Positions 25,701 through 60,550 of a DNA stretch of 64,000 nucleotides are shown here, one piece after another. The stretch spans positions 5,519,378 through 5,583,377 of the forward strand of contig NC_087381.1 in the NCBI RefSeq assembly GCF_963675165.1, written 5' to 3'. Position numbers and translations under genes: made by a program. The notes below the pieces were generated by a model. It saw only the letters and a program-made list of their open reading frames with translations, did no database searches and was not told the DNA's origin. Origin of the DNA: Halichondria panicea (lineage: Eukaryota > Porifera > Demospongiae > Suberitida > Halichondriidae). The first letter of the stretch is position 1. The number at the start of each line of letters is the position of its first letter.

Positions 25701-27848
25701 GTCCGGCAGTGCTGAGACAACACTCTCTAACCTGAGCAGTAGCTGACTCGATCAAACTTACAGAAATGATGTCTCCGTTACACTCGACCTCACTATAGCA
25801 ACCAGTGATGGAACGAGGACCTTAAAAAAGAGCAATAACTATTTACTTGTATAACCAAGATATTTTTTAGTCTAACACGATAGTAAATAACGTATATCAG
25901 GGAATTTTCGTCAATACAAATTTTCCTACTAACTATAATAATTACCCACTTTATTTCGTATTAAAAAGTTTCACCCTACTCAAGGTGGTGACTATTGCGC
26001 ATTGTTGCATTTTGAGTGGGCAGATCAAAGGAAACACTGTGCCAGTATCTGCCATATGGCACAGGTCAAGCCTTGAACTGTGCCACTATCTAGATACTGG
26101 CATAGTATGGCTGAAGTTACGTAAAGCCCACCCTCCACCCAGTAACCTGAAACGGTCCCTTTTATAGTATAACACTGTTAACAGATTCAGTGGTAAGCAG
26201 AAAACGTTTTTCATGCGTCTGGTGCATTCCACAGCCACCACAAGTAGTTGAAACTAGTTGTCCTATAAAAGGAGTGATGTGTACACGGAAAAGAATGCAC
26301 AAGGAATGCAACAAATCAGTTGTTACACAGCTCACTCGTGCGCACATCGGATATATTGGCTCAGTAGTGCCTTTGATCTTGAGGCCTGCGGCCCTCGGGC
26401 CTAAGTCACTACTGAGCCAATATATCCCATGTGGCACTCGTGCATGTGTCACAACTATAACTTAATTTTCAGACGAATAATTAAACTAGCTACCAAAATG
26501 TGCACCGTACGAAAAATTTATAACTCGTATATACGGTAATTTGTAGAGATAGACTCACATTGTAAACATCTTCCTGCACTGTCTGTGTAAGCCACTCCCC
26601 CACCAGTAGCACAACACTCGCCACGACTCAGAGATTGGCTGGCATTAAAGCCATCAGTACAGCCAATGTTAGCCGAGCAAATCACATTTCCTGCATTTGA
26701 ATGGAGAGAAATCATAAATTTATTATGAAACTAATACTAGCTGGAGTCGAATGGATCAGCACAGCCAGCTATAGGGATATAGTCGAGCAAAGCATGCATA
26801 TTGACTACTAAGCACATTGCTCTACAAAGGATATTACTAGTTAAAAAATGAGTTAAAATTTTCTAAAAAGAGCACAGTCCCCTCTTTAATTCACATTTTT
26901 AATACTGTGAATCTTACCGGAGCACAGTTGACAGATATCGGCTCCTGTATTGAAGGACAAGAATCCCTCATCACAGCAGTCCTGACCTGCGACTCTTAAT
27001 GTTGGTCGTTCACTACTGCAACTGAAGTCTGCTGTACTGTAACATTCGACCTGACCCATACCTGTTCAATGCCAGAAAAATAATTATTGATGATACATAA
27101 TAGATTAACCTTAAAAAACCCAGGCCCGGAACAAAAGCCTAGATTGTGATTCACATCATGTAACAGCTGGTTGCTTGAGCCATATATACCTATTAATTAA
27201 TATACCCATGCAGTGATGATAAAATTATATTATACCACACTCAACGGCCGGCCAACTGCAATATATAAATCAGCCCATTTTTTGTGTACAACACATTTCC
27301 TACAAAGGTCACCTCTGTATAATGGCTAAAAGTTGGTTCCCAAATGTTTACGGTGAAAGAGGTTCTCAAAAACATGCACAGAGCCGAGCAAGCATTTGGA
27401 TAGCCAACTGTTCGTAAGTATTTTGCCAGTAGATCATTAAAAATGGAGTGTTCACAAGAAGGGCTGCTGGCTGGCAGTATATACCAGCCAGCACTGCAGC
27501 CCTTCTTGTGAACTCTGATCTCATTGCATGCAGTTTTGCCAGCTTTTTTCTGACTCTCAAACAGCTATATAGCGCTTTTAGTGCACAGCTAACTCATAAG
27601 TAGTCTCCTTCACAGGTCTTGAAGGAAAAAAGAGTGCATATATATATGGCCTGGGATCGAGGCTAAATAACACCCATGCACTGGAAGCAGCATGTCCTAC
27701 CATCAGTATAACTGAATACATTCCTGCATTTATATTATTGACACAACAGTCCTCACATTGTATTATTTATTAAAAAAAGCAGTGTCTTACCAGCAGTGGA
27801 ATTGAGCAAGAGGATCAATGTCAGTAGAAGTTGACTTGAAACTCCCAT
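16788..27848 (-). CDS. adhesion GPCR with three Cys-rich modules, HormR, GAIN, GPS and 7TM
   Basis: Sixteen exons splice into an open frame of 1009 residues: 27848-27791 (signal peptide MGVSSQLLLTLILLLNSTA), 27061-26918, 26690-26559, 25820-25662, 25063-24848, 24761-24558, 23452-23220, 23050-22907, 21433-21339, 21078-20571, 20519-20477, 18597-18494, 18416-18295, 18240-17972, 17849-17783 and 17319-16788. Exons 2-4 each hold one Cys-rich module. Exons 5-6 are a beta-rich region of unknown type, distantly Calx-beta-like. Exon 7 is a HormR-type module (SWPNTALGS, RQCSGS, GGMW). Exons 8-12 form the GAIN domain and GPS. Exons 13-16 give seven membrane helices, including the family-typical FFSWMAVEAVWLYLKL in TM3 and a Ser/Thr-rich tail. 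Such receptors sit in the plasma membrane and signal through G proteins or adhesion. The usual GPS cleavage residues are changed. Start and phases are consistent throughout; exon 5's acceptor is the least certain. Confidence 0.88.
19112..19280. repeat. three-unit tandem repeat in GPCR intron
   Basis: About 60-base units, each containing GTGCAACAGATGAGAAT and AACTTGGAAGACAGAGTA-like blocks, are repeated three times with small gaps. They lie in the intron between the two exons that make up the GPS region. Confidence 0.75.
22337..22873. mobile_element. TIR element with internal tandem duplication in GPCR intron
   Basis: GTGACAGGCTCTGGGAAAAC at the left end is the inverted repeat of GTTTTCCTAGAGCCTGTCAC at the right end. 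The right terminal 115 bases occur twice in tandem (about 22642-22755 and 22758-22872). No coding capacity. Confidence 0.8.
25405..25548. repeat. foldback hairpin in GPCR intron
   Basis: TACCATGGATATC.. GTACTACC near the left end pairs with GGTAGTAC.. GATATCTATGGTA at the right end, with a second paired block around CCCTCGG. An imperfect stem of roughly 60 bases with no coding potential. Confidence 0.65.
25985..26462. repeat. foldback element with TGTGCCA / ATATTGGCTCAGTAGTG stem
   Basis: The inner stem ATATATTGGCTCAGTAGTG (26350) pairs with CACTACTGAGCCAATATAT (26407). Outer blocks ACACTGTGCCAGTATCTGCC and TGTGCCACTATC are related. A much shorter derivative is at about 42055-42160 and another fragment at about 44217-44260, both beside or inside the chimeric GPCR gene. 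Confidence 0.7.
27451..27513. repeat. short hairpin TTCACAAGAAGGGCTGC
   Basis: Two inverted arms of about 30 bases (TTCACAAGAAGGGCTGC against GCAGCCCTTCTTGTGAA) meet with almost no loop, in the first GPCR intron. Probably the core of a non-autonomous element. Confidence 0.7.
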
Positions 27849-31898: not shown

Positions 31899-32161
31899 AT
31901 CAGCTTCTAACCGAGGAAGAAGTCATCACTGACACTACTATAAACCCCCCTGAAGTAGTAGTCACAGTCAATCTAAACACGGCCATAGTGGTACCAATTG
32001 TGGTGATCCTGCTCATTGTATGCTGTTGTATTCTAATACTCGTTGTCGTGTGTGGAGTGAAGGATCGTAAGAAAAAAAGTTGTCAATCCGATACTGAAAC
32101 GAGTGCGTTTTTGGATAAAAAAAAGATACGACTGACTGAGTACAATACTTGGATACTATAA
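31899..32161 (+). pseudogene. orphan transmembrane/tail exon of the receptor family
   Basis: After the acceptor TATTATAG, 263 bases encode a short acidic stalk (LTEEEVITDTTINPPE), a hydrophobic helix ([15 protein letters not shown]) and a basic tail with a stop at 32159-32161. It closely matches the last exon of receptor copy 2 (38762-39009), including the 5' flanking intron. No lysozyme-like, vWA or PPC-like exon precedes it on this strand; the space upstream is taken by the decayed transposase-like gene. It is most simply the 3' remnant of another tandem copy. Confidence 0.75.
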
Positions 32162-35111: not shown

Positions 35112-38100
35112 ATGAAGACTGCTGCTTTCAGTGTGCTGATTACTCTCAGTGCATTGCTCCGTCTACTGACTGCTCAGGGAGTGGACTTGACCTTGCAAAG
35201 AGAAGCATCTGGGTCCGATGTAGTCAGAGCAGCAGTGAATAGAATCCAAGCTGTACTCGATTTTGATCGACAACTTCTGAGGCGAATTGCTTTTGTTGAA
35301 TCGAGAGATGGAACTGACACGGATACGTATCGACCTGGCTACAATGGAGGCATATGGCAGGTGGATGAAGATAAGTTTTTAACCACTCAAGCAAATAGTG
35401 CACTGAATGTTGAGAGACATGACGCCATAAGAGAGGCGTTTGACATTGATTGGCCAAGTGTGCAGTGGAGGGATTTGAGGATTCCCCTCTATTCGGGAAT
35501 AGCAGCGAGACTGTTTCTTTTAAACGTTTCTGATACGGAACCTATTCCGTGTGATATACCAGGACAGGCTGCTTACTGGAAGACACACTACCGAGTCTAC
35601 CGTGGCATTTATACTTGTAATAAGGCTGACTCGGAGGAGACATTTATCGAATATGTTAACATCTTAGCAAAAAGAAACCGTAAGTTTAGATAATTATAAG
35701 CATGCATTCTCTGTGATACACATGCAGCACACATACAAAAGGGCACCCGCTCTAGCTGTTTGATTGGCGAATTGAAGTTAGGAATCTGTATACAGTAGCG
35801 TTAATCCGGTCACCCTTGGGGCGCAGTGCAGCTTGGCCGGAATAGCGATCACGAGGTGGCTGTATTTCAGAAAATAGCCGCGGCTAAAAAACGACTTTAC
35901 CTCGAATCTATAATGGTTCATTTTGCGGTTCTATTTAGATGATAATAAAGGGTATTGAATCATTTTGCTCTCTATTTAAGTGTAATCAAATTTTATCTGC
36001 CAAACCACACCCAAAACGTCATATTTGGCTGTACGTTGAAAACCTAGTTTGGGGCAGCAAGTAAATATTATATGGAAAGCAAGCTAGCTATAGCAATCTG
36101 TGCCAAACCAAATGGCCGGTATAATTATGGAGATGGCCGTACTCGGAATAGCGAGAGTTTACTGTAGTCTTGTGTGCACAATGTACATGCATGCATGCAG
36201 TGTTGATATGCTAAAATTGAATGTGGGTAGCTACATATTGTTGTCATGTATTGTGCCACTATAATACATGTGCTTGAGGACATTGAGAATCTAATCCTGG
36301 CTCTACACCCCTGATGTGTGCCAAATAAATGGCAAGACAGTTTATCTATAACTGTCAGAGTCTGACCATAATTATACACCCTGTTTGAACTTTACACTGC
36401 ATTGGGAAACATGTTATGAAATAGATACAATTAATGTATAGTCCTCCGCTATATTACATAGTAAATAAAATGCAGGTTTTTCGAAGCATGATTGCCTGAC
36501 AGCATGTTAAATTTAGATCTGCAGCATGGCTTTACATGCATGCATGCATAATTATATACTAATCAATGAATGCGCGCGTCTTATCATTTACAGCCTGTCG
36601 AGTTGTCAACGACATTGTGATGGTCCTGGAGGAATCTGGAAATGTTGGGGAGGCCAACTTTAACCGGGTGAGAGAATTTGTTATTCAATATGTGGACAGT
36701 TTGCAAATTGGACCGAATAACAATCGAGTAGGTGTGATCACATTTGGCACTACTGCCCAGGAGCAATTTAGTCTAGACACCTGCAGCAATGCTACATCCT
36801 TGAGAAATGCTGTGGCAGATCTTCCATATAGTCGGCAAGGAGGTACTAACATACCAGATGCTCTCTGTCGACTTCTCCGAGTTTTCTCAACTGAAGGTCG
36901 TACGGATCCCAGTGTGTTTAGAGTGGCCATGGTCTTAACTGATGGGCAGTCTACAGTAAACACTAACGACTGTGGCTATTCATCAGTTGCTGAAGCTTCG
37001 GCTGCTTTGAGGGCTGCCTCTCCACCTATTAATGTGTTTGCAATCGGAGTCGGGTCAAATGTCCAGAGAAAAGATTTGGTAGCCATTGCCAGTCAAGAGC
37101 AGTACATTTTCAGTTCTGCTGACTTCTCACAGTTGTTGTGTATTCAGAGTGTTCAAGAGGAACAGATTTGCAACACAAGTAAGACCCCATTTTGTTTGAG
37201 TTCATAGCATGCAGAGCAAAATTAATGACATTATTACCCAAATCTGTACGTATAGTCGCAGCAACTGTTCCAAGAAACACCACCAACAATGGTGAACTGG
37301 AACGTGGGGAGCAAGTCCGATGGGAATTTACCATTTCTGAATGTGGCGTGTCATTTAATCTCTCTGTACAAGAAGGGGATATCGTTTTGTACGCGTCAAC
37401 AGAAACCACAGCACCAAATGAGGCCATTTATCAGTTGAGAATTGAAGTTTCAGCCACATCCAATTCTTTTGAGGCCATAAACATTATTCCTTCATTGGGG
37501 GACAATGCTGTCAACTGCAGTTTTGTTGCTAATGTCACTGTGTTTACAACTATTGTCGGTGAAAACGATACCAACATATTTACTGTATCTACCAATGGTA
37601 AGCCATATTACTATAATTATAGCTATATACAATATACACACAAAACGTTGAAAAATCACTATAAATTGCACTAATTATGCCTCGGTGCGCATGCGCAAGC
37701 GAGGTATAAGGTAGTGTGTTTGTGTGTGTGTGTGTCGATCTGTGTAGACTGCTACAGCTTCTCAAGGATCAATGAAGTGCAAGTAAGAGTTTCTATATAT
37801 AGGCTTCTAGTCATGTTTTCTTGGATTTTAATTCGTGGAATACCGCACTTATTCGATTTAAAGCCGCGACCCTCCAAATATGCGATACCCTCGATCTTTT
37901 CAAATTTTCTGACCTCAAAAAGAAGCAACTGCAGCATTGACAATTATTTTTTTATGTCGCGTAGATCGAGGTCAAACTACAGCCTCGATTCCAGGCCGCA
38001 AGAAACAATCTAGGATATAGTAGAGTAACCTCCAATTATAGATGCCACCCTCTAAATATGCGACACCAGGACTTCAACATAATTTTCAACCTCCAAAAGA

Positions 38101-39009
38101 AACGACCTCTGGCTGTGGAATTATTTAAATAAGTACGGTAATGCTTCGTTCTCAAGCCTTATGCCTAGTTTTGCTTACTTGGAATGCCATTGCAGCCTTT
38201 TCAGAAGAGCACGTAGCCAAACTTGTTTACCGAGTGTTGCTATAGTCTACTTAGCAGTTAGTTCTGCACTAGAACGCTAGCTATTGGTAGCTGCAAGAGT
38301 GAAAAGAGATTGCACGCGAGCAAAGCTCTGCTGACGGGAACCAAGCCTATCTATACAGTTTTGTTCTGGCCTGTTACGCAATAGCATCATTATTTTTAAG
38401 TGGGTGTTAGCCAATAGCGATGAATATCACTTGTGTTGGCCACGCCTTTCAGTCAATCCAGCGTGTGCAAAATTCACGTGGTAAAAGTGGGTGTGATCAA
38501 ATACTGATTGGAATCTTTGACTTTTGATTTGATACACTCATATGACAATGATAGATTAGTTATTTAATGATAGAATATCTTTTGTTATAGATTTCTGAAG
38601 TTAAAACGGCTAGCCATTAAAACTAGAAGCATGGAAATGGTGCGCTTGAGTCCATTTTAATATTTCGAGAGGTCATTTTGTATAATTACATAATTATAGG
38701 CAATTTCCTTGAGCACAACTAGATCATTATATATTGGCAATGCATTGTCTCTCTTTTATAGATCAGCTTCTAACAGAGGAAGAAGTTACCACTGACACTA
38801 CTATAAACCCCCCTGAAGTAGAAGTCACAGTAAATGTTGCCGCTGCCATAGTGGTAACAATTGTGGTGATCGTGCTCATCGTAGGCTGTGGTAGTCTAAT
38901 ACTCGTTGTCGGGTGTCGGGTGAGGTGTCGTATAATAAAAAAAAGAAAAAGGTGCAAATGCTGTCAATCCGCGCCAATACTGGGAGAAAAAAAAGATACG
39001 GCTAACTGA
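35112..39009 (+). CDS. lysozyme-like / vWA / PPC-like single-pass membrane receptor, copy 2
   Basis: Exons 35112-35679, 36594-37178, 37256-37597 and 38762-39009 splice in phase 1 to a 580-residue protein. Exon 1 has a signal peptide ([16 protein letters not shown]) and a lysozyme-like domain with the candidate catalytic Glu in FVESRDG, then YNGGIWQVD and [13 protein letters not shown]. Exon 2 is a vWA domain starting CRVVNDIVMVLEESGN and ending with paired Cys. Exon 3 is a roughly 113-residue N-glycosylation-rich beta domain, with a possible resemblance to PPC domains (GEL.RGE..RW.F, VLYAST). Exon 4 gives a short stalk, one membrane helix and a Cys/Lys-rich tail. The MIDAS motif DxSxS reads EESGN, so metal binding may be weakened. 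It is predicted to be a surface protein; the ligand is unknown. A duplicate of its last exon is at 31899. Confidence 0.85.
35796..36167. mobile_element. MITE-like insertion in intron 1 of copy 2
   Basis: The left end TACAGTAGCGTTAATCCGG and right end GGAATAGCGAGAGTTTACTGTA are imperfect inverted repeats, with GGCCGGAATAGCG and ATGGCCGTACTCGG blocks inside. No coding potential; sibling copies lack it. Confidence 0.55.
37675..38460. repeat. dispersed TATGCCTCG element in intron 3 of copy 2
   Basis: It begins TTATGCCTCGGTGCGCATGCG, contains a GT run, then AGGCTTCTAGTCATGTTTTC. It is similar along its length to 46208-46600 in the chimeric GPCR gene. The copy here carries an extra insert (about 37840-38150) with CCTCGATTCCAGGCCGC. 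Confidence 0.65.
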
Positions 39010-42370: not shown

Positions 42371-45300
42371 ATGAAGACTGCTACTTTCAGTGTGCTGATT
42401 ACTCTCAGTGCATTGCTCCCTCTACTGACTGCTCAGGGAGTGGACTTGACCTTGCAAAGAGAAGCATCTGGGTCCGATGTTGTCAGAGCAGCAGTGAATA
42501 GAATCCAAACTGTGCTTGATTTTGATCGACAACTTCTCAGGCGAATTGCTTTTGTTGAATCGAGAGATGGAACTGACACGGATACGTATCGACCTGGCTA
42601 CAATGGAGGCATATGGCAGGTGGATGAAGATAAGTTTTTAACCACTCAAGCAAATAGTGCACTGAATGTTGAGAGACATGACGCCATAAGAGAGGCGTTT
42701 GACATTGATTGGCCAAGTGTGCAGTGGAGGGATTTGAGGATTCCCCTCTATTCGGGAATAGCAGCGAGACTGTTTCTTTTGAACATTTCTGATACGGAAC
42801 CTATTCCGTGTGATATACCAGGACAGGCTGCTTACTACAACCGAGTCTACTGTGGCTTGACATGTAACGAAACAGAGCAGCACTTTGTCGAAAGTGTTAA
42901 CATAATCTCGGCAAACAGAAACTGTAAGTCCTTAATACAGGTTTAAACCGCAAATTGATAAACGTATTATGCCAAAATACGATTTGTACAATCATGCATG
43001 TACAGTTATACATAGTGTAATATCCATGGTATTGTATAATTATATATATTGTAAGTTTAATGTTTTATTTCATAAAAGATCGAGTGACTGCACTATAATA
43101 TCCTGATTTACAGTTAATAGCGACATTGTGATGGTCTTGGATGAATCTGGCAATATTGGGAAGACCAACTTTAACCTGGTGAAACAATTTGCTGCACAGT
43201 ATGTGGGTAGTTTGCAAATCGGACCGAATGACAATCGAGTAGGTGTGATCACATTTGGCAGTCATGCCCGGGAGCAATTTAGTCTAGACACCCACAGCAA
43301 CGCTACATCCTTGAGAAATGCTGTAACAGATCTTCCTCATGCTGGAGGAAACATCAACATACAAGATGCTCTCTGTCAACTTCTCCGAGTTTTCTCAACT
43401 GAAGGTCGTACAGATACCAGTGTGTTTAGAGTAGCCATGGTCTTAACTGATGGGCGGTCTACAGTATACGATAACAACTGTAGCTATTCATCGGTTGCTG
43501 AAGCTGCGGCTGCTGTGAGGGCTGCCTCTCCACCTATTAATGTGTTTGCAATTGGAGTCGGGAAAGATGTTCGGAATGAAGATTTGGTAGCCATTGCCAG
43601 TCAAGAACGGTATATTGTCCGTATTGATAACTTCTCACAGCTGCCATGTGTTCAAAGTTATCTAGAGGGACAAATCTGCAACATAAGTAAGATCATTCGT
43701 TCATAAATAATTATTGTTACATAAGCCCCCTATGGAGTTCTTATAAACAAGAAGTATTATAATTATAATGTCATTCCATTTCTGTAGCAACGACTGTACC
43801 AAGAAACACCGGTACCACCAACAATGGTGAACTGGATCGTGGGGAGTTAGTCCGATGGAAATTCACTATTTCTGAATGTGGCATGTCATTTAATCTCACT
43901 GTACAAGAAGGAGAAGTCGTTTTGTACGCGTCAACAGAAATCACAGTGCCAAATGAGGCCATTTATCAGTGGAGAATTGAAGTTTCAGCCACATCCAATT
44001 CTTTTAAGGTCATAAACATTATTCCTGCATTGGAGGACAATGCTGTCAACTGCAGTTCTGTTACTAATGTCACTGTGTTTACAACTATTGTCGGTATAAA
44101 CGTTACCAACATGTTCACTGTATCTACCAATGGTAAGCCCTATAGCTCAATGCACTTATACAAAGTAGTCTCCCCCGCCCTGCATGCATGTTTATATGTT
44201 TTTGTTGCCCAGTGAGTGGGCAGATCAAAGCAATCCATTGCTGTGTATATGGCATCACTATACCACCATGCATGCAGAACATAGGTTTCAAAAGACCTCT
44301 AATTTTGACTAATGCCACACCATCCCACCCAATAACCCAATTGGTCCTTTTTATAGAATCTACCTTTTGTACTAGTTGTGGGAAGCAAAACTAATGATTT
44401 ATGATGGAATTCGGCAAAACTAATGAAATCACTCAAAACACATGAGAGAAAAACTTGCCCAATCAGAAAAGTTTGACGTCATTGGGCAAGTTAGTTATTG
44501 CAGGCGCCCTCGTGCAACATGCCAAATAACTAGATAACTTATAATCCGCACTTGTGCTTGGCAATAACAGAATGAGAGAAGAAGTATTACCATTTCATTT
44601 TCATGATTCTATTTGAGCTGCTTTTGTTTAGCTGTGGTGATGGCCTAGTTGATGAGATCAGTCAGAGATAAAGTATGTTGGATTGTGGTCTGCCACAACA
44701 TGTTCACCTGTAGTTGTTGAGTTAGCACCACAGCACTGCATGTGATTCTTTCTAACTGTGGACGATATGCTTGTCAATTGGTTAATTCTATCACCGCCTT
44801 CCTCAGCCCCACAGACTCAGTGTCCTCCTCTACCGGCCATTCTCAATGGATTCATCACCTACGCTCCTGACAACACACCTGACTATGATCTGGGAACTGT
44901 GGCTACTTACGCCTGTGACATTGGGTTTGTTCTAGACCTCTCCCTAGGAGGATCTGAGATTAAAACTTGTGCGGACAATAATAGACTGGATACTATTGGA
45001 GCGTTTGATAACCTTAACCAAACTCTAAGATGTACCCGTGAGTAAGATATCTCCTATAAAATATACCCTATTTTGCAATGTACACTATTTTATTGCAAAT
45101 CTTCCATCTGTATTACAGCCATTGAGTGCCCTCCTCTACTGGACATTCCTAATGGTACGATCTCCTACTCTCCTGACGTCAGCCCTAATTTTGATCTGGG
45201 AACTAATGCAACCTACACTTGTGACGATGGATTCTATATCATGGATGTCACTGAGGCACGAGTTTGTATGGATGAAAATGCTATGGGAGTGTGGAGTGGT

Positions 45301-48300
45301 CAGAAGCCTCTTTGTATCGGTACGTTATTGCATACTTTAAATATACCGAGGTAGTGCACGTCTCAGACTTAACGAAATTACAGCCATGTATGCATGGAAT
45401 TTAAGCATAAGTCTTGCAATGCATGACATCTATATAAATTATACATGCATGTATACATGAATGTTTAATAAAGATATTTTAGCAGAGCAATAATTATAGA
45501 GACATTGCATGTGTCTATTGTGCACGACCTTAATTTGTATTTGAACGTCCATACATGCATACTCTGTTTTTGTTGCTTAGTAAACAAAGTCATGCGTTTC
45601 ATCTAGCTATCAATTGAGATGCTGATGATTTGACTACCTAACTCTTATCTGCAAGGGAATTAACCGTAGCTACATAATTATGCTTAACAAATCATTCTCT
45701 CTTACAATGCACAAAATTATGTTTCAGCTGGCTGTGTAGCGGGTATACACCAGGATCATTCTTGGCCCAACACGGCACTAGGGTCTATTGCGCTGTCTCC
45801 TTGTCCATGTGCTGAAATGGGTGTGTTTGCAGGGAATGTCAGCAGACAGTGCTCTGGGTCAATCAGTGAGGGAGGTATGTGGAAGGATGAGCTTGACCTC
45901 AGCAGCTGTGAGACTACACTTTCAGACATATCCCAGGAATTGTGTGAGATTACACTAGTAAGTGGTTTGAATAAGTGTATAGTATAACATCTGTGTCATG
46001 TTTGTTATAGCCAGCTATAGGATTTAGCCACTTTAATTAATGTACTGAAAAATCATGGAGTATAGCAAGTCCATCGCAGTAAGAAATATATATAGTGTCC
46101 CTTAGTCAGTGTACTCACTTAAAGTGAAACAAATGATTGGCCCGGTGCCCCACCACCCAAGGTTTTACTCATGTCTGGATGGTAAACGTTGCTGTAAATA
46201 ATAATTATTATGCCTCGAGGCGTAGCCGCACGAGGGATACGGTAAAGCTGACTGTGTGTGTGTCTGTGTGTGTGTGTATTCCAGCAGTAACTGCTCAACG
46301 GTTGCAATGCGACGAAAACTAACAGCTTCTATAGGCTTCTAGCCACGTTCTCTTGGATTTTGATTCGTGGATTAGCAAACTAAAGCTTCTTTCTCTAGTT
46401 ATGGCTAGTTTGACTCACATTGAAGGCTGTTGCAGTCTCTTCAGAATCTTTCATAGCATCATCTGTTCGCACAAACTTTCTATTCAACATATGAGTTAGC
46501 CTTGAACTAAAGCGCTAGCTTTTTGTTAGCTACAAGACTCAAAAAATATCTGTTAAAACAGCTAGCTAGCAGTAGCCATTTGTGAAAATTGATCTCTTTG
46601 GACACACCCTTTAATTATTGCTGTGGATGTAATGCGCATGCGCGCTCATTCCCCATGTGTGAGAAAATAATATCCAAGATCCAGATCCAGATCCTCCTGG
46701 CAGAATCATCTTTGTCTTGAGGGCTAGGGCCTGGTAAGCCATAAAACACTACCATATAACAATATTAATATAGATAACAATATGCATGTACAGGTCTTTT
46801 CTTCTTAGATATTATATACACTGAACTACAGATCCTGGAAGAATCAATTTTCTTCTTTCTTGAGGTCCTGGTAAGCCACATAATACAACAATAGATGCAT
46901 GTAAATAAATGTTTTCTTCTCAGTGACTTTATATAGATAAGCTAACTTTAGATAACATTCTAATACTTTTGAGCGAAAGCAAAAACATGGCGAGAGGCAT
47001 TAGCACAGCGCCAGCTTGAACACTAGTTATTATAGGCACTCTCATCAAATACAACAACAACAACTCAAGCATCCAATCAGATTGCCAATATCACATCTAA
47101 GCCACAAAATCTGACTACAAATCAAATCGCCATGGTTACTTCAATAGTAGAGCAACTAACAGGAGAAGCTACTGTCAACCAAGAGGTAAACATTGTTACT
47201 TGAAGTCCAAATTAATTTTAATGACTCTTCACATGTCCATGCAGGTGAGGGACAACTATCTTCAAACAATCAACAATATTCAGCTAGCCGATGCTGAAGC
47301 CATCTATCAGAGCCAGTTGGCAATGAATTCATCAATAAGGTATCACATATATATATACAGCAGATTTAGGGGGGGGGGAGATATACGTAGGTGAACATGA
47401 CGCATGAGAAGTGATCATTGGAGCTTTACCTGCAGTTCAAGCAGAAAGTGGTAACCACGTGCACAAAATTCATATCCACGAAGACAGAACTGACTACAAA
47501 ATTAACCTTCCGGAAATTACCCGCTATAATTTTACGATAAATTATTGCAAGCTTGAACAACTCCAAATGCTTTGGCAACAGATTGCCGCTCATATACATG
47601 CACTTGCTCTTAAAAGTCCTTGGTCTTTCCCAAATGATTGCTGCTATAATAAGTATAATTATTGTACCATGCATGCAGTAGTGGTTTTTGCACTATGTCA
47701 ACACATAATAACTTTATAACGTTATACAATAGTTGTGAGCATTAATGTATCTTATTTTACTGGCATAGGATTCTTGCAAGCCTCAATTCATTTCTGGACA
47801 ATCTCAATATTTCAACTGTTTCCAGAAACTCCACAAGCAATCGGACTGTTTTCAGTTTCGAAACATTTGCTATCACAGTGCAAGATGTATACCCTGACAG
47901 TTTCCAGGGCCAGACATTTGTTGTTGATTTAGGACCTGTCGAAGAGGCAATTAACAATACTGGCGTTATCGACCAAGATGCTCTGATGAAATTTAATGGT
48001 GGTAAAGGTAATACAGCTGATAACAGATCAGACAACAAAAACTCAACAGCTTCTCTCCATTTAAGCCCATCAATTCTTGAGGATTGCCCAGCAACAAATC
48101 GTACCTCGCTTACGCAGAGATTAAGTTACTCTGTTTTCTTGTCTGGTGTGCTTTTCCTTCCTGAGAACAGAAGTACTAATCAGGTGGGATCTATCGTGGT
48201 AGCTGCAAGACTAGCTTGTCTGCAGACCAACAAGACAGTACCAGTACGGACAAGCTTTCTGATCAGGACGATGGTAATTATAAGAAACTTGAATCTTAAT

Positions 48301-50114
48301 AGCTATATACTTAATAAGTTACTTTGCCTGCAGGATAATATCAACAGCAGCAGTTGTGCTGTGTTTAACACTCAAGGTTAGCGACTAGAATAATTGAGGA
48401 CACTTTTACTATTATGAATCATCATGGTGAAATATCTTTAGTATAAGCTCACAAACAAAAAGTATACTGTCATAATGCCGACTATTTCAGATCGGTTTGG
48501 AGCTTGGGACACTGCTGGATGTAAAGAGATAGCCAGTTCCAATGGGAGAAAAGATTGCGAATGCAGACAATTGGGCCATTTTGGAATACTATTTGTAAGT
48601 TTATATTTGCATGGCAACGAAATTAATGAAATCACAACCTTTTATGCACCTCACGGTTACAGGATTTGAATCCAACTTCATTGCCTGAAAATCTTGCAAT
48701 TGCTTTGAGCACCATCACATACATTGGCCTGGGCTTGTCTGTAGTTTGTCTTCTGGTGTTCATGTTTACCATTTTTATCAGCAAGTAAGTGGAAGCCTGA
48801 TTACACCAACTTATAAGCTTGACATTTCTATTTCCTTCACAGGAAGCTACTCGCTGATAAGCAGAACCAAATTCTCATCAACATGAGTATTTCACTGATA
48901 TGTCTGTACTTCACCTTCCTCATTGGAGGGTTCACTGTTGGTGTCCCACCTCTCTGTGGATTCGTGTCTGCCCTCCTGCAGTACTTCTTCCTAGTGTTTT
49001 TCTCCTGGATGGCTGTAGAAGCTGTCTGGCTCTATATCAAACTGGTAGTGGTAATGGGATCTGATTCCCTCACATCCAAGTTCATGCTGAAGGCTGGGCT
49101 CCCAGCTTGGTGTAAGCAATCACTCGATTTAAACAGTGTTCGTTTATAATTATTATGCATGCATGTATACTTAAGGGATAATTCATTCAATTGAACGCAT
49201 GCACAACATTGTGCTTCTTGACTGTATAGTGATGATGATTTACCACTCCACATGCAGTACTCCCCTTCGTGATTGTAGCCATAAGTGCGGGGGCAGGCCA
49301 CCAGCACTACAACAATCCATACTAGTAAGTGAATCAAATCGTATATAAGATAAAATAAACTTGGCCGATTCTTTATGTTCAGCAAAAAAACATGGGTCTG
49401 GGGGCAATTAAGTCAAATCAAGTACTGTGGATCCTACAAGTTTTGTGTATAGTTACTTAACTCAAATCATCATAATTATGTAGTCTCAATACTGGAATAT
49501 TAGCTAGGGCATGTGCATGGATGTACCCCGTCATTCATTCATTCATATACACACATTACTATTGATTCAGCTGTCGTCCTACTGAATGGCCTTTCTATTT
49601 TGGATTCATTCTTCCTTTTGTCATCATCTACGTACTCAACTGGATTGTGTTTGTTGCCATCATGGTGTCCATTTGCAAGCATTATGTCAACGGAAACCTC
49701 TCACCACTAAAAGAGAGCTCCCAAAGTGAACAGTTCAGCAATTTTAAGAAGAACTTGACTATTGCAATGTGCCTATCGGTTGTACTTGGCCTGGGTTGGG
49801 GCCTTGGACTAGCATCAACAAGCTCTGGTCTGGTGGAGCTGTCATTTCCGTTCCAAGTGATATTCTCGATCTTTGTGGGCTCTCAAGGTGTGCTTATCTT
49901 CTTTTTTTATGGCCTTCGAAGTACTGATTTTTGCCAGACATGGATAAAACTCTTTAATTGCTCTAAATCTAACACTGATAACTTTGTGTCTTTTGAGAAA
50001 GGAAGTACTACTCAACGTACGGTTTCTGGCACTGCAGTAGAGGAGTTATCGAGCATGTCAAACACATTGCCGAGAAAACAGTACGCCCAACACAACGAAG
50101 AAAAAGAACTATAG
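42371..50114 (+). CDS. chimeric adhesion GPCR: lysozyme-like + vWA + PPC-like + two sushi + HormR + GAIN/GPS + 7TM
   Basis: Fifteen exons give an uninterrupted 1343-residue frame: 42371-42923, 43114-43686, 43788-44132, 44807-45037, 45119-45319, 45728-45957, 47036-47185, 47245-47339, 47769-48273, 48334-48376, 48491-48594, 48663-48784, 48843-49111, 49258-49324 and 49571-50114. Exons 1-3 are the receptor-family ectodomain (signal peptide [13 protein letters not shown]). In the sisters exon 3 splices, in phase 1, to a single-pass anchor; here the next phase-1 exon is a sushi domain and no anchor exon is seen in the 674-base intron. Exons 4-5 are two sushi domains and exon 6 is HormR. Exons 7-11 are GAIN and GPS, and exons 12-15 the 7TM. 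The tail is closely related exon by exon to the minus-strand GPCR at 16788-27848. MIDAS reads DESGN with Ile in place of the TNI threonine, and the leading CRV of the vWA domain is missing. The alternative is two genes, with a start near 44767 just before the first sushi domain. Confidence 0.78.
44807..45319 (+). CDS. two sushi (CCP) exons of the chimeric GPCR
   Basis: Exons 44807-45037 and 45119-45319 each encode one sushi module. Both begin with CPPL(L/P)..I(L/P)NG and continue through a YSPD/YAPD..(F/Y)DLGT.ATY.C core, and the second ends in GVWSG. Both are phase 1 on each side, so they can be inserted or lost without breaking the frame. The minus-strand GPCR lacks them and has three other Cys-rich modules in the equivalent place. 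A Met codon at 44767 lies in frame with the first module if the acceptor is ignored (MLVNWLILS..), so a separate short leader is conceivable. Confidence 0.85.
46208..46630. repeat. dispersed TATGCCTCGAGGCG element in GPCR intron
   Basis: TTATGCCTCGAGGCGTAGCC, then a GT run, then AGGCTTCTAGCCACGTTCTC and TTGATTCGTGG. This is the same order as in the element at 37675-38460. Non-coding. Confidence 0.65.
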
Positions 50115-54984: not shown

Positions 54985-56016
54985 TGCTTTCAACTCTATC
55001 AATAGGAAATCCGCCCTTCATAACGTCAGTGTGCTGTGTCCCCTCCTTGCACAAGTGCTCATCAACACATATATAGTCACCCTGTCCGCTTGTTTATCAC
55101 AAATGGGGGTGAAATTCAAAGTACAGAAGGCACTACCCAAGGCGACCCCCTGGCAATGGCCATGTATGCCATTGCCATTGCCACTATACCACTAATTAGA
55201 AAACTGAAGGAAAAGTGCCCAGATGTTAAGCAAGCCTGGTATGCAGACGATGCCACCGGAGCCGCCTCATGTAATAACCTAAGGTATTGGTGGAATGAAC
55301 TCTCTCGACTAGGGCCCCTCTATGGCTATCATCCCAACCCAGCCAAAACATACCTGGTTGTAAAAGAAGAGCATAAGGAGAACGCCACCTCTGCCTTTGC
55401 TAACACCGGAGTTCAGATCACTACAGAAGGCAAGCGCCACCTTGGAACTGCTATAGGCTCACACAGTTTTACCAAAGAATATGTCACTGGAAAAGTTGAG
55501 GAATGGACACAGGAAGTCGAACGCCTCGCTCGGGTTGCAGTATCACAACCCCAGGCTGCATATGCAGCGTTCACACATGGTCTCACAGGCAGATGGACTT
55601 ACCTACTTCGAACAATCCCAGACATACACAATCTCCTCTTCCCTCTAGAAACAGCAATAAAACATCTTCTCATCCCTGCTCTATCAGGCCTCCCATCTTG
55701 TTCAACGCTAGAAAGAGATCTACTCGCTCTCCCTGTGAGACATGGAGGATTGGGCATTGTCAACCCTACAACCCTACCCTCACAATTCTACAAGGCATCC
55801 GAAACAATATGTAAACCCCTAGTCTCTCTCATCGTGTCTCAAGACATGGATCAGAATGCAGACCCGATGATAACAGCAACCGCTAAAAGAGATGTGAGAG
55901 CCCTGAACCGTGCGGAACATGCTCAACAAGCCAATGATGTCAAGGACAAGTTACCCAGTGATCTGAAACGTCACGCAGATCTGGCAAGTGAAAAAGGAGC
56001 CTCATCATGGCTATCG
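54985..56016 (+). pseudogene. 5'- and 3'-truncated retrotransposon reverse transcriptase fragment
   Basis: The fragment begins inside the polymerase domain (AFNSINRKSAL), shifts frame once near 55072, then runs open through EGTTQGDPLAM and the catalytic YADD box (codons at 55240-55251). Then come GYHPNPAKT, a thumb-like region and LALPVRHGGLGI, ending near GASSWLSV. The family is a non-LTR-like RT of the kind common in invertebrate genomes; I cannot place the clade. No start region, endonuclease or complete C-terminus is present. Downstream, at about 56017-56106, it abuts an inverted piece of the receptor family's first exon, so a rearrangement breakpoint lies here. Confidence 0.75.
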
Positions 56017-56106
56017 GTTATACCAGGAGCCCATAAAGAGAAGGAGCGACTAAATTCAACGTACACTCGGGGATCACGTCTCGTAATTGCCGGTGAAACC
56101 GCACTT

Positions 56107-56245
56107 CTTGGATTCTATTCACTGCTGCTCTGACAACATCGGACCCGGATGCTTCTCTTTGCAAAGTCAAGTCCACTCCCTGAGCAGTCAGTAGAGGGAG
56201 CAGTGCACTGAGAGTAATCAGCACACTAAAAGTAGCAGTCTTCAT
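56107..56245 (-). pseudogene. inverted, truncated first exon of the receptor family
   Basis: From the ATG at 56245 the minus strand encodes the family signal peptide and the beginning of the lysozyme-like domain ([16 protein letters not shown], then NRIQ), after which similarity fades at about 56107. No later exon of the family follows. It is the left arm of a large inverted duplication whose right arm is the promoter and exon 1 of receptor copy 4. Confidence 0.88.
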
Positions 56246-58151
56246 TGATTGATTGAGTTGATATAAATGTGTAAAAAGTCGCAATCGATAATATGCTTTT
56301 GCTGGACTTGTAAGTCCTTTATAGCTATATCACACAATTTGTGACTCCATAATTATGCCACGTTTTGCATTTTGCATCTATAGGAAGACTCCGGACGGAA
56401 AGCGTTATTATGATTGGGAACAACAAACATGCGCACGAGGAAAGGTGCACGACTTATGATACTGTACAATATAATGTACTGATTCAGTTGTGGGTGTGAT
56501 TTCCACTAGTTGTATGCTAATTAAGCACTGTGATCGTCTCATGTCAATCTCATGTCAATACATGCAAAGCACCTATACCATGCACAGAGCAAGAGCATGA
56601 CCTGGACATGTTTTATACACCTGATCTATATAGTGCCTCAAAAGGTATTCAGATCTCTATAAAACATACTTATATAGTCATAAATCTACAATTTCAAAAC
56701 ATGCACTGAAACTTTGTTCCTGCAGTATAATTATACAGTCATTGTAGATGAACCATATAGATCTAGCAAAGCCATGCATGCATACTGTATGCTGTAAAGC
56801 CACATCACATTTGTAGATATGGATCGATGCTATACAGCTGCACACACAAACATATATTGCATGAATGCATGGGTGGGTACAGTGCATGGTTCCAATCCCT
56901 GGGTATATATATATATCAACATAATTATACATGCACTACTGTTTTTTACATAATGCATGATCGACAGATCATGAATCTATAAAGCAACAAGGATTAGAAA
57001 ACTAAAACAGTGATTTTGTCATCTTCACAAATTTCCTATTATTTTTCAACCATGCACTGTCTCATTAGATTTATGACTATATAAGTATGTTTTATAGAGA
57101 TCTGAATGCCTTTTGAGGCACTATATAGATCAGGTGTATAAAACATGTCCAGGTCATGCTCTTGCTCTGTGCATGGTATAGGTGCATGTGTATGGGAACT
57201 GCATGGGGGACACATGCATGTGTGCTAGCGTATGCATGTATATGAAGGAAAAATACTGAAAATGGCCGGGGTGTGCTTATCCATGCTCTTGTTCAACATC
57301 ATTTGTTAGCGGCTATAATCTGTTCAAGCAGTATACATTTTATGACATTGTCATGTGTAATTGGGAGATCAGAGTTAATGCCTGCATGGCATGCGTGCAT
57401 GTGAAGTGTGAAGGATATCTTATAATGGTGTAACCACCAGATAGGATGTTTATATAGGAAAGGGATTACAGCATTGATACTCATAGTCTTTCCTATTATG
57501 TCAACGTGTGTACTCATTAATAATAAGCAAGGTGAATATTATGCTAATGTCCTTGACTGCATGCTTAGCCTCAAGTATAGTATGCTTAAATCCTTCTACA
57601 GCCTTATAACTACACAAACAAATGCATGAGGTCATGCGCAATTATGGGACAAGCACTCTTATACTCTTGGAGGAAACAGGCAATAGAAAGCTAGACATCC
57701 TTTGCATGTATTGACATGAGACGATCACAGTGCTTAATTATCATACAACTAGTGGAAATCACACCCACAACTGAATCAGTACATTATATTGTACAGTATC
57801 ATAAGTCGTGCACCTTTCCTCGTGCGCATGTTTGTTGTTCCCATTCATAATAACGCTTTCCGTCCGGAGTCTTCCTATAGATGCAAAATGCAAAACGTGG
57901 CATAATTATGGAGTCACAAATTGTGTGATATAGCTATAAAAGGACTTACAAGTCCAGCAAAAGCATATTATCGATTGCGACTTTTTACACATTTATATCA
58001 ACTCAATCAATCAATGAAGACTGCTACTTTTAGTGTGCTGATTATTCTCAGTGCACTGCTCCCTCTACTGACTGCTCAGGGAGTGGACTTGACTTTGCAA
58101 AGAGAAGCATCCGGGTCCGATGTTGTCAGAGCAGCAGTGAATAGAATCCAA
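56107..58151. repeat. large inverted duplication of receptor promoter and exon 1
   Basis: Bases 56107-56687 are the reverse complement of 57067-58151, except for an insert of about 515 bases in the right arm (about 57187-57701). Shared landmarks include GGAAGACTCCGGACGGAAAG, AGCAAGAGCATGACCTGGAC and AGCATATTATCGATTGCGAC. The centre 56688-57066 is unique. The arms carry the presumed promoters of copy 4 and of the truncated exon, which therefore face away from each other. Confidence 0.9.
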
Positions 58152-60550
58152 ACTGTGCTCGATTTTGATCGACAATTTCTAAGGCGAATTGCTTTTGTTG
58201 AATCAAGAGATGGAACTGACACGGATACGTATCGACCTGGCTACAATGGAGGGATATGGCAGGTGGATGAAGATAAATTTTTAACCACTCAAGTAAATAG
58301 TGCACTGAATGTTGAGAGACATGACGCCATAAGAGAGGCGTTTGACATTGATTGGCCGAGTGTGCAGTGGAGGGATTTGAGGATTCCCCTCTATTCGGGA
58401 ATAGCAGCGAGACTGTTTCTGTTGAACATTTCTGATACAGAATCTATTCCGTGTGATGTACCAGGACAGGCTGCTTACTACAACCGAGTCTACTGTGGCT
58501 TGACATGTAATGAAACGGAGCAGGAATTTATCGAAAATGTTAACACCTTGACAAACAGAAACCGTAAGTATCTATTATAAAGGACTCACTGGTATAATTA
58601 TGTGAAATTATGTGTGTATACTATTATTATAGTCCTCTGCATAAGACAATTCAGTTTGGTTTCACCCTTGTTTGATTCTTGTTTGTTGTGTTGTGAGTCT
58701 GATCAGTAAATTATGCTTAATTGTGATTGCCGCCTGTTCGCATGTATTATTTTACAGCCTGTCGAGTTAACAGTGACATTGTGATGGTCCTGGATGAATC
58801 AGGCAGTATTAGGGAGCCCAACTTTAACCGGGTGAGAGAATTTGTTGTTCAATATGTGGACAGTTTGCAAATCGGACCAAATGACAATCGAGTAGGTGTG
58901 ATCACATTTGGCACTACTGCCCGGCAGCAGTTTAATCTAGACACTCACAGCACTGCTACATCCTTGAGAAATGCTGTGGTAAATCTTCAATATAGTGCAG
59001 GATTTACCAACATACCAGATGCTCTCTGTCGACTTCGGCAAGTTTATTCAGACGATGCTCGTACAGATCCCAGTGTGTTTAGAGTGGCCATGGTCTTAAC
59101 TGATGGGCAGTCTACAAGAAACACTAACGACTGTGGCTATTCATCAGTTGCTGAAGCTGCGGCTGCTTTGAGGGCTGCCTCTCCACCTATTAATGTGTTT
59201 GCAATCGGAGTTGGGTCAAATGTTCTGAGAAGTGATTTGGTAGCCATTGCCAGTGAAGAGCAGTATATTTTCAGTTCTGCTGACTTCTCACAGTTGTCAT
59301 GTGTTCAGAGTGTTCAAGAAGAACAGATCTGCAACACACGTAAGATCCTAATTATATAGAGCTAAAAATTGAATGATTGCATGCATGTGACTTGTATCCT
59401 GCTATGATTATACAACTAGCTTACATCCATACACTTTGTACCATAATAAGAAACATAATTATAATTATTTTAGCCTCGTTCCCAGGCCGATTTAGAAGGG
59501 ATATGGTGGAAATTGCAACTTGGCGGAAATGAGGCTAATAGAAATGCTTGCACGTGGTTGTCTTGATTTTGACCTGTCCCTAATAATTTCATCTGGATCC
59601 CCCTAAAATAATTCAGTGCATGTTAATTAAGGTGGTCGAATAATAATGGTATTATTATGCCTTTGCTACAATTCTTGGCATATATAGTCACAACAACTGT
59701 GCTACGGAACACCACCAACAGTGGGGAACTGGATCGTGATGAGGTCATACGCTGGCAATTCACTATTCCTGGATGTGGCGTGTCATTTAATCTCACCGTA
59801 CAAGAAGGGGATGTCATTTTGTACGCGTCAACAGAAACCACAGCACCAAATGAGGCCATTTATCAATGGAGAATTGAAGTTTCGACCTCTTCTAATTCTG
59901 TTGGGGTCATAAACATTATTCCTCCATTGGGGGACAATGCTGTCAACTGCAGTTCTGTTACTAATGTCACTGTGTTTACAACTATTGTCGGTATAAACGT
60001 TACCAACATGTTCACTGTATCTACTGATGGTAAGTATATACACATTCAGTCACTCAATTTTGCAGGCTGTATGTGGAGTCAAAATTACTGTAATTATGGT
60101 GAATAAGCCCTTATAGCGAGTTAAAGTATGGTCGCAATGCATGCATAAATTAATTAGCAGTATGCTCAGCCTCCAATTATATAGAGAGCTTGCATGCGCT
60201 GTACTTAATATAGAGGTTAGACATTAATGTGTGCATGCATGCCATGGTGTATATATACGTGTCCTTGTAGTTTCCTTTTACACTAAACACTATATCGCTT
60301 GCACTATCTTTCCTCTATAGATGATCTTGGTGAAACCAGCACGGACACTACTACTGTCGACAATGATTTTGAAATACCAGTGCTAGTCATCATCAATTTT
60401 GCTGCTGTCATAGTGGTACCAATTATCGTGGTGATCCTGCTCAGCGTATGCTGTTGCATTGTGATAATAGTTGTTGTGTGTGGAGTGAGGGATCGTAAGA
60501 AAAAGTACCACTACAAACACTCGGATGCTGAAACAAGTCCAAAGAATTAG
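58014..60550 (+). CDS. lysozyme-like / vWA / PPC-like single-pass membrane receptor, copy 4
   Basis: Exons 58014-58563, 58758-59339, 59688-60029 and 60321-60550 splice in phase 1 to 567 residues. The order matches copy 2. The signal peptide is MKTATFSVLIILSALL; the in-frame Met at 57921 is upstream of the conserved family start and is unlikely. The lysozyme-like domain keeps FVESRDG and YNGGIWQVD. The vWA domain has an intact MIDAS (DESGS, TNIPDAL, LTDG). The PPC-like domain has several N-glycosylation sites, and a membrane helix (AVIVVPIIVVILLSVCCCIV) precedes a short basic tail RDRKKKYHYKHSDAET that resembles the tail of copy 1. It is the most canonical member in the window and the best reference for the family. 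Function is inferred only: cell-surface binding, possibly of bacterial wall or of self ligands. Confidence 0.88.
59471..59537. repeat. TAGCCTCG hairpin in intron 2 of copy 4
   Basis: TAGCCTCGTTCCCAGGCC at the left and GCGGAAATGAGGCTA at the right form an imperfect 67-base foldback. It is a diverged member of the hairpin family also at 34668 and 60669. Confidence 0.6.

Follow-up and report, generated by a model that had tools for sequence, protein, structure and literature searches.

Whether an animal G protein-coupled receptor (GPCR) can carry a phage-type lysozyme-like domain as its outermost head is the question raised by a locus, hereafter D, at positions 42371–50114 (+) of a 64,000-nucleotide stretch of the genome of the demosponge Halichondria panicea (contig NC_087381.1, positions 5,519,378–5,583,377), which we call the window and in whose numbering positions are given unless a chromosome is named. 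At D, exons of a single-pass receptor family, predicted to encode a lysozyme-like domain and a vWA domain, are followed by the exons of an adhesion-type GPCR. Judged from the sequence, D is probably one chimeric adhesion-type GPCR gene, a reading that we infer because D shows no membrane exon of the kind found in the single-pass family, no convincing start precedes the sushi exons, the donor of exon 3 is strong, and the same layout recurs in D', an inverted duplicate of the locus.

An exon model of D, rebuilt independently from the sequence alone, reproduced exactly the open frame of 15 exons and 1343 residues with matching phases that had been put forward in the original prediction. The model comprises 4032 nt, encoding 1343 amino acids and a stop, with GT-AG boundaries at all 14 introns, consistent phases and no internal stops; every exon from 2 to 6 starts in phase 1. 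Exon 1 (42371–42923) encodes a signal peptide, recognized by eye, and the putative lysozyme-like domain of phage type (phrog_3108, see below), exon 2 (43114–43686) a vWA domain, and exon 3 (43788–44132) a 115-residue domain of unknown type that is common to the single-pass family. Beyond the junction intron (44133–44806), exons 4 (44807–45037) and 5 (45119–45319) encode the first and second sushi domains and exon 6 (45728–45957) a HormR domain; exons 7–10 (47036–47185, 47245–47339, 47769–48273, and 48334–48376) are assigned to the GAIN region by their position between HormR and GPS. The GPS motif, whose match starts in exon 10, lies in exon 11 (48491–48594), and exons 12–15 (48663–48784, 48843–49111, 49258–49324, and 49571–50114) encode the seven-transmembrane (7TM) domain and a cytoplasmic tail up to the stop codon. 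The order sushi, HormR, GAIN, GPS, and 7TM after exon 3, likewise proposed in the original prediction together with a Pfam search, is supported by that search, which found the vWA domain (PF00092, residues 188–362, E 3.7e-33), two sushi stretches, the GPS (PF01825, residues 968–1009, 29.7 bits against a cut-off of 22.5), and 7tm_2 (PF00002, residues 1024–1272, E 2e-27). HormR (PF02793) scores 20.7 bits in D, under the cut-off of 26.2 that a GPCR paralogue in the window, B, passes with 29.3 bits, and the GAIN region yields a sub-threshold match to the GPR128 GAIN subdomain A (E 0.68).

Two sites within these domains depart from their canonical form. Cleavable adhesion GPCRs carry an HL-T/S signature at the GPS; the GPS of D reads CECRQLGHFGILF, without that signature, and QLG occupies its place in D, in B, and in B', the duplicate of B. 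Autoproteolysis of D is therefore not expected, and the missing signature sets D apart from other adhesion GPCRs, but uncleaved adhesion GPCRs exist, and for that reason D is kept in the class. The segment HFGILF after the GPS presumably resembles a tethered agonist. The metal-dependent adhesion site of vWA domains has the form DxSxS...T...D and is incomplete in D, with DESGN and an Ile at the Thr position, while the window paralogue E keeps both DESGS and the Thr.

Since a phase match at 44132/44807 would be expected by chance in about one case in three, the open frame alone does not prove a joined transcript; the presence of paralogous sets or matches of the exons elsewhere in the window does make the exon model more than a product of chance. 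Four sets of exons 1–3 occur in the window: A (7363–5546, −), C (35112–37596, +), D, and E (58014–60028, +). A membrane exon follows A (5316–4951) and E (60308–60538), and a weak match lies after C (38815–38931, E 0.007), in agreement with the kinship to a single-pass receptor family claimed for exons 1–3 of D. Between 44132 and 44807 that membrane exon was not found, as had also been claimed. Across the 131 Mb genome, the 16 matches of exon 1 fall at 14 places, namely 12 long ones (135 residues or more of 184), a copy in three pieces, F, and one partial copy; exon 3 has 12 matches, the membrane exon seven, and the HormR exon 13. Among the eight close exon-3 copies (D, D', F, C', C23, A, E, and C; the other four matches are distant), five have a membrane-exon match downstream, and those without one are D, D', and F, which is already broken. 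In A (7363–4951, −), an out-of-frame stretch containing a stop interrupts the vWA exon, and A is therefore probably a pseudogene. A lone membrane exon, without exons 1–3, stands at 31952–32107 in the window and at C5:5150463–5150642, the two being duplicates of each other.

The GPCR half of D has paralogues of its own. In the window, B (23453–16791, −) matches each of exons 6–15, and neither a sushi exon nor exons 1–3 were found upstream of it on the minus strand; three short open stretches at 25657–27065 (−), upstream of B, resemble one another in their Cys pattern when inspected by eye, match no Pfam model, and may form the head of B itself. Between one and eight sushi-like exons stand before the HormR exon in all seven fetched paralogues elsewhere (L039–L045), none of which shows a match to exons 1–3 within about 5 kb upstream of it. 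Further domain-like stretches or sushi exons lie upstream in all five paralogues with open frames inspected; by eye these stretches are Calx-beta-like in L039, L040, L043, and L045, and when three of them were submitted to Pfam, two gave sub-threshold Calx-beta matches (E 3e-4 and 0.0094) and the third gave none. The differing upstream domains indicate that the head attached to the GPCR core varies from copy to copy. Among the matches listed, 150 of 227 candidates having been scored, no second fused layout with exon 1 closely upstream of a 7TM or HormR exon in the same orientation was present. On C7, an exon-1 relative (4788510–4788974, +; 38%) lies about 6.3 kb from a HormR-exon relative (4795293–4795514, −; 52%), and this pair, opposite in orientation, may mean that the two exon families have long been linked.

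An inverted segmental duplication, which relates about 5000–50000 of the window to C5:5.13–5.18 Mb some 400 kb away, provides D', C', B', and F as mirror images of D, C, B, and A. The arrangement of D is fully retained in D' (L038), with exons 95–100% identical (gaps ignored), a junction intron 98.2% identical (gaps ignored), and introns 13 and 14 at 86% and 77%. The net indels in exons 1, 3, 7, and 9 of D' amount to 12, 6, 6, and 18 nt, multiples of three, as expected of formerly coding sequence in both halves. D' is nonetheless broken by stops in the vWA exon and in exon 15, an insertion of 2 nt in sushi 2, and a GT to AT change at the donor of exon 13, all four of which were confirmed when the reading was repeated. 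No stop interrupts the exons tested in its neighbours (three of C', nine of B'), and the loss of both halves of D' next to undamaged genes is consistent with a single transcription unit. Because A and F show that decay is frequent in the family, we count this only as moderate evidence.

At the junction itself, the exon-3 donor (ATG/GTAAGC) is the same site that ends exon 3 in A and C, and homology of D to its paralogues ends a few bases beyond it. In leave-one-out splice scoring, this donor ranks first of 14 and the exon-4 acceptor sixth of 14. More than half of the intron is a dispersed genomic repeat (about 44199–44568) with dozens of matches in the genome. Mapping of the breakpoint by DNA similarity failed, the paralogue introns not aligning with those of D except for intron 2 with that of C, and TATA motifs were uninformative. 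A methionine at 44767, in frame and with an in-frame stop upstream at 44743, could serve as the start of a separate GPCR (MLVNWLILSPPSSAPQTQC..., which has a short hydrophobic run and is weakly signal-like), in which case D would consist of two directly adjacent genes, the first a truncated lysozyme-vWA gene with a secreted product or a pseudogene, the second a GPCR starting near 44767. Truncated or broken lysozyme-vWA copies are common here, and the lone membrane exon at 31952–32107 adds to this case. We nevertheless hold two genes to be unlikely, because the start at 44767 falls short of that of exon 1 in hydrophobicity (maximum 9-residue mean of 1.87 vs. 2.69) and coincides in part with the pyrimidine-rich tract of the exon-4 acceptor, because paralogous sushi exons come after other exons, and because the lesions of D' fall in both of its halves and in none of the tested exons of its two neighbours.

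A single joined gene must also contend with several observations that weigh against it, besides the candidate start at 44767. The acceptors at 44278, 44504, and 44821 outscore that at 44807. In no GPCR paralogue was a start exon identified, so that the absence of a start of its own in the GPCR half of D rests on the homology of the sushi exons. D and D' are recent duplicates rather than independent confirmations of the layout, and D' is broken; A and F are broken as well, decay of exons 1–3 being common here. The junction intron has no poly(A) hexamer, which is uninformative, none being present in the 486 bases past the final stop either. Lastly, reading through the exon-3 donor meets a stop after about 27 codons, which makes a secreted exon 1–3 product possible. 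Alternative splicing or read-through could then give both a secreted lysozyme-vWA protein and a fused receptor from one promoter, and fair donors at 44212, 44490, and 44673, together with the three acceptors just named, lie near the junction; set against the rank of the exon-3 donor as the strongest of the gene, such dual output appears quite improbable.

It could further be argued that the fused gene is non-functional, a chance arrangement in a turbulent tandem region whose fate D' displays. The broken state of D', the duplicates and repeats of the region, and the high ratio of nonsynonymous to synonymous substitution rates (dN/dS) of the vWA exon of D (0.73 vs. C and 0.78 vs. E) are in its favour. 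D itself, however, is free of lesions across its 15 exons, and dN/dS stays below 1 in both halves, at 0.23–0.62 for exon 1 and 0.38–0.87 for exon 3 (each against A, C, and E) and at 0.28–0.55 for five GPCR exons against B, which leaves very little room for this alternative. Both halves of D look coding, as far as substitution patterns tell, with a fast-evolving vWA. Valid comparisons of D with D' hold too few differences to weigh selection, and the values for exon 2 of D against A and D' and for exon 15 of D against D' were discarded because the aligner had dropped stop signs.

If D is one gene, the nature of its head becomes the next issue. With the sequence of exon 1 as query, no Pfam model was matched, lysozyme and SLT models included, and the search against Pfam and the PDB returned nothing useful. 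A profile comparison with PHROGs, in turn, matched residues 53–176 to phrog_3108 (E 2.9e-10), a family of phage proteins labelled there as of unknown function. Exon 1 also matched a huge phage (E 7e-7) in a search of 50,697 phage records, and scanning prokaryote contigs with the exon-1 alignment of this genome gave one relative, a protein encoded on a 3.2 kb contig in a metagenome-assembled genome (MAG) of Deltaproteobacteria and 42% identical over its best segment. The alignment of this genome's rows recovered no relative from viral contigs, whereas single phage or bacterial relatives used as queries did. An open frame matching the family profile is carried by 150 of the 152 relative loci (L062–L213), or 58 after removal of near-copies. 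The phage motif YWKKYYNT is kept in two paralogues on chromosome C2; D lacks it.

The genomic surroundings and annotations of these relatives bear on what the family does. In Pseudomonas phage PSA28, a holin (phrog_785, E 1.1e-25) and an Rz spanin (phrog_89, E 1.7e-8) come next after the phrog_3108-type gene, and in phiKO2 the homologue, gp54, comes after a small protein that has three hydrophobic segments and is assigned to no named family. Small membrane-protein neighbours occur at 34 of 55 loci, a count made without a control; in a sample of 50 transmembrane-bearing neighbours, hand-selected from the flanks and in which one protein may count twice, six Rz-spanin families (one to three members each) and three holin families (one each) were represented. 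One phrog_3108-type member is annotated as endolysin in its record and matches SLT below the cut-off (E 0.0011), and another matches Phage_lysozyme2, also below the cut-off (E 0.0049). Over the 42 members of the alignment, there are five SLT and four Phage_lysozyme2 matches at E up to 0.05, the best being 0.00017 and 0.0015. The phrog_3108-type family is best read, on these grounds, as lytic enzymes of the lysozyme superfamily, in part endolysins. In two viral contigs (L096 and L101), the domain lies inside open frames of 613 and 534 codons, which could be virion-associated lysins.

Structure prediction points in the same direction. With a 42-row, hand-chosen alignment that includes phage and bacterial relatives, AlphaFold gave an all-helical model of the exon-1 domain with a mean predicted local distance difference test score (pLDDT) of 92.7 and a predicted template modelling score (pTM) of 0.90. 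A first model, built from 12 rows of the window's own genome, had reached a pLDDT of 58 and was set aside, its PDB list being noise except for three phi6 lysin rows. In a Foldseek comparison of the 42-row model with the PDB, 17 of the top 20 rows belong to the lysozyme superfamily and represent seven different proteins, namely lytic transglycosylases, g-type lysozymes, a chitinase, and a phage transglycosylase; MltE heads the list (probability 0.93, E 0.26), and the best TM-score is 0.53. Two predicted viral structures pass E 0.001, neither with a named function. Over the 42 rows, Glu63 is conserved in 42, Gly80 in 40, and Gln83, Arg133, and Tyr155 in 41 each; D carries Glu63, G80-I-W-Q83, and Y155. 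Glu63 is presumed to be the catalytic Glu, as read from the motif and not from a superposition.

The original prediction had guessed that exon 1 is lysozyme-like and had suggested comparing its structure with such folds, and the guess is supported by the phrog_3108 homology, by the lysis neighbours in PSA28, and by a confident model whose nearest folds are those of the lysozyme superfamily. Three findings weigh against a lytic identity. No PDB row passes E 0.001, solved lysozymes scoring 0.26 or worse; exon 1 of D has no Pfam lysozyme-model match; and none of the five other phage records has a named lysis neighbour, so that one in six does.

The phylogeny of the family, inferred from 54 rows that include 10 of this genome's 12 long exon-1 rows and rooted by midpoint, places nine of the ten genome rows in one clade (98/94), which groups with the huge-phage, Deltaproteobacteria-MAG, and marine viral proteins (98/91). 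The long-branch row L024 falls outside this clade and L022, also on a long branch, inside it; all ten rows come together in 22% of bootstrap trees, and a single origin of the exon-1 domains of this genome is thus neither shown nor excluded. The tree, whose root is a midpoint only, is most simply read as a transfer of the domain into the animal line from a phage or bacterial source. Contamination with phage DNA was rejected, exon 1 lying in a 7.6 Mb contig and being followed by vWA exons in all six loci checked (A, C, D, E, C', and D').

These elements suggest a mechanism in which exons 1–3 would have come from the local single-pass receptor family, by way of a copy without membrane exon that stood directly upstream of sushi-HormR-GAIN-7TM exons, and in which phase-1 splicing would join the two groups of exons. 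The lysozyme-like domain would be displayed on the cell surface as the primary ligand contact and would bind, or cut, a peptidoglycan-like or other beta-linked glycan, while the vWA and exon-3 domains would act as spacers or protein contacts. Because the GPS motif and the vWA metal site are incomplete, we expect the receptor to remain uncleaved and to sense by way of its lysozyme head. Ligand binding would act on the uncleaved GAIN domain by tension or conformation, and the sushi, HormR, and GAIN domains would transmit the strain to the tethered-agonist segment. In this tentative and somewhat doubtful scenario, the animal recruited a phage-type lytic enzyme as a ligand-sensing GPCR head by way of the single-pass family (12 long exon-1 loci), shuffled it onto an adhesion GPCR core, and reads the bacterial wall, or its turnover, into 7TM signalling. 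A wall-like ligand for D would fit the phage kinship, and the sensing of bacteria, whether as food, symbiont, or pathogen, is the most likely function that we can name, although as a specific assignment it remains rather speculative. A fused transcript, if real, would constitute a defined, testable coupling of bacterial-wall recognition to animal GPCR signalling. It would mean that a phage-type lytic domain entered the animal receptor repertoire, and it would document, at the resolution of single genes, how an adhesion GPCR family exchanges N-terminal modules. A side result is a likely role for the phrog_3108 proteins as lytic enzymes.

Known systems resemble D in part. The adhesion GPCRs of the demosponge Amphimedon carry SRCR, Ig, fn3, EGF, and HRM heads, according to the portion of that source used here, and share with D the 7tm_2 and GPS domains, a HormR domain (sub-threshold in D), and a modular N-terminus, in their case with immune-type heads such as SRCR repeats; unlike in D, sushi, lysozyme, and vWA are not mentioned in the main text (PMC4302439). 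Many adhesion GPCR heads are catalogued, within the sections drawn on, in a further source, from whose main text lysozyme, sushi, and vWA are absent (PMC12716839), as they are from the consulted part of a 2026 review (PMC13197933). Among the open-licence papers listed, no title or abstract describes an adhesion GPCR with a lysozyme-type head; some of the listings carry little weight here, since their papers do not contain the term adhesion GPCR. In a sponge, an adhesion GPCR transcript is reported, in the excerpt at hand, to be up-regulated by microbial or bacterial patterns (PMC6208332), which makes a microbial ligand plausible for the sponge adhesion GPCR class; that receptor differs from D in that its authors relate it to the latrophilin type, and the main text, as far as covered, does not contain the word lysozyme.

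For the exon-1 domain, the closest likeness is to phrog_3108 proteins, with which it shares the conserved Glu, GxxQ, Arg, and Tyr, whereas the phage members stand alone as short proteins or sit within longer open frames. GH23 lytic transglycosylases and goose-type lysozymes (MltE, Slt, and g-type) are the nearest predicted folds, but none has E <0.001 and D has no sequence match to SLT or lysozyme Pfam models. In the parts of the sources used, g-type lysozyme is absent from demosponges in one survey (PMC11576321), and GH23 lysozymes are reported in Porifera (PMC12855814). The Enc34-type endolysin (PHA02564) is described, in the passages relied on, as having a phage lysozyme fold and, like D, no recognizable similarity to known types (PMC8943055). 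It did not appear in a PDB profile search of the exon-1 family at E 10, and membership of that family is therefore not claimed for it. The ascidian protein Rusticalin offers an animal parallel to the putative phage-type lytic domain of D, but its own phage-like, wall-lytic domain is a peptidase and not a glycosidase, and the term GPCR does not occur in the portion of the main text covered here (PMC6339383).

Some further features of the region were observed. Intron 6 of D contains a segment of about 800 bases (46211–47024) that begins with a TG-rich run and is absent from D', and which is probably an insertion in D. The GPCR paralogue L044 (C5:7258300–7263500), with eight sushi-like exons, has a stretch upstream that looks retroelement-like by eye. 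Within the window, a 369-residue open frame at 55024–56133 (+) appears reverse-transcriptase-like by eye, with a YADD box, and is adjoined on the opposite strand by a partial exon-1 copy (56245–56084).

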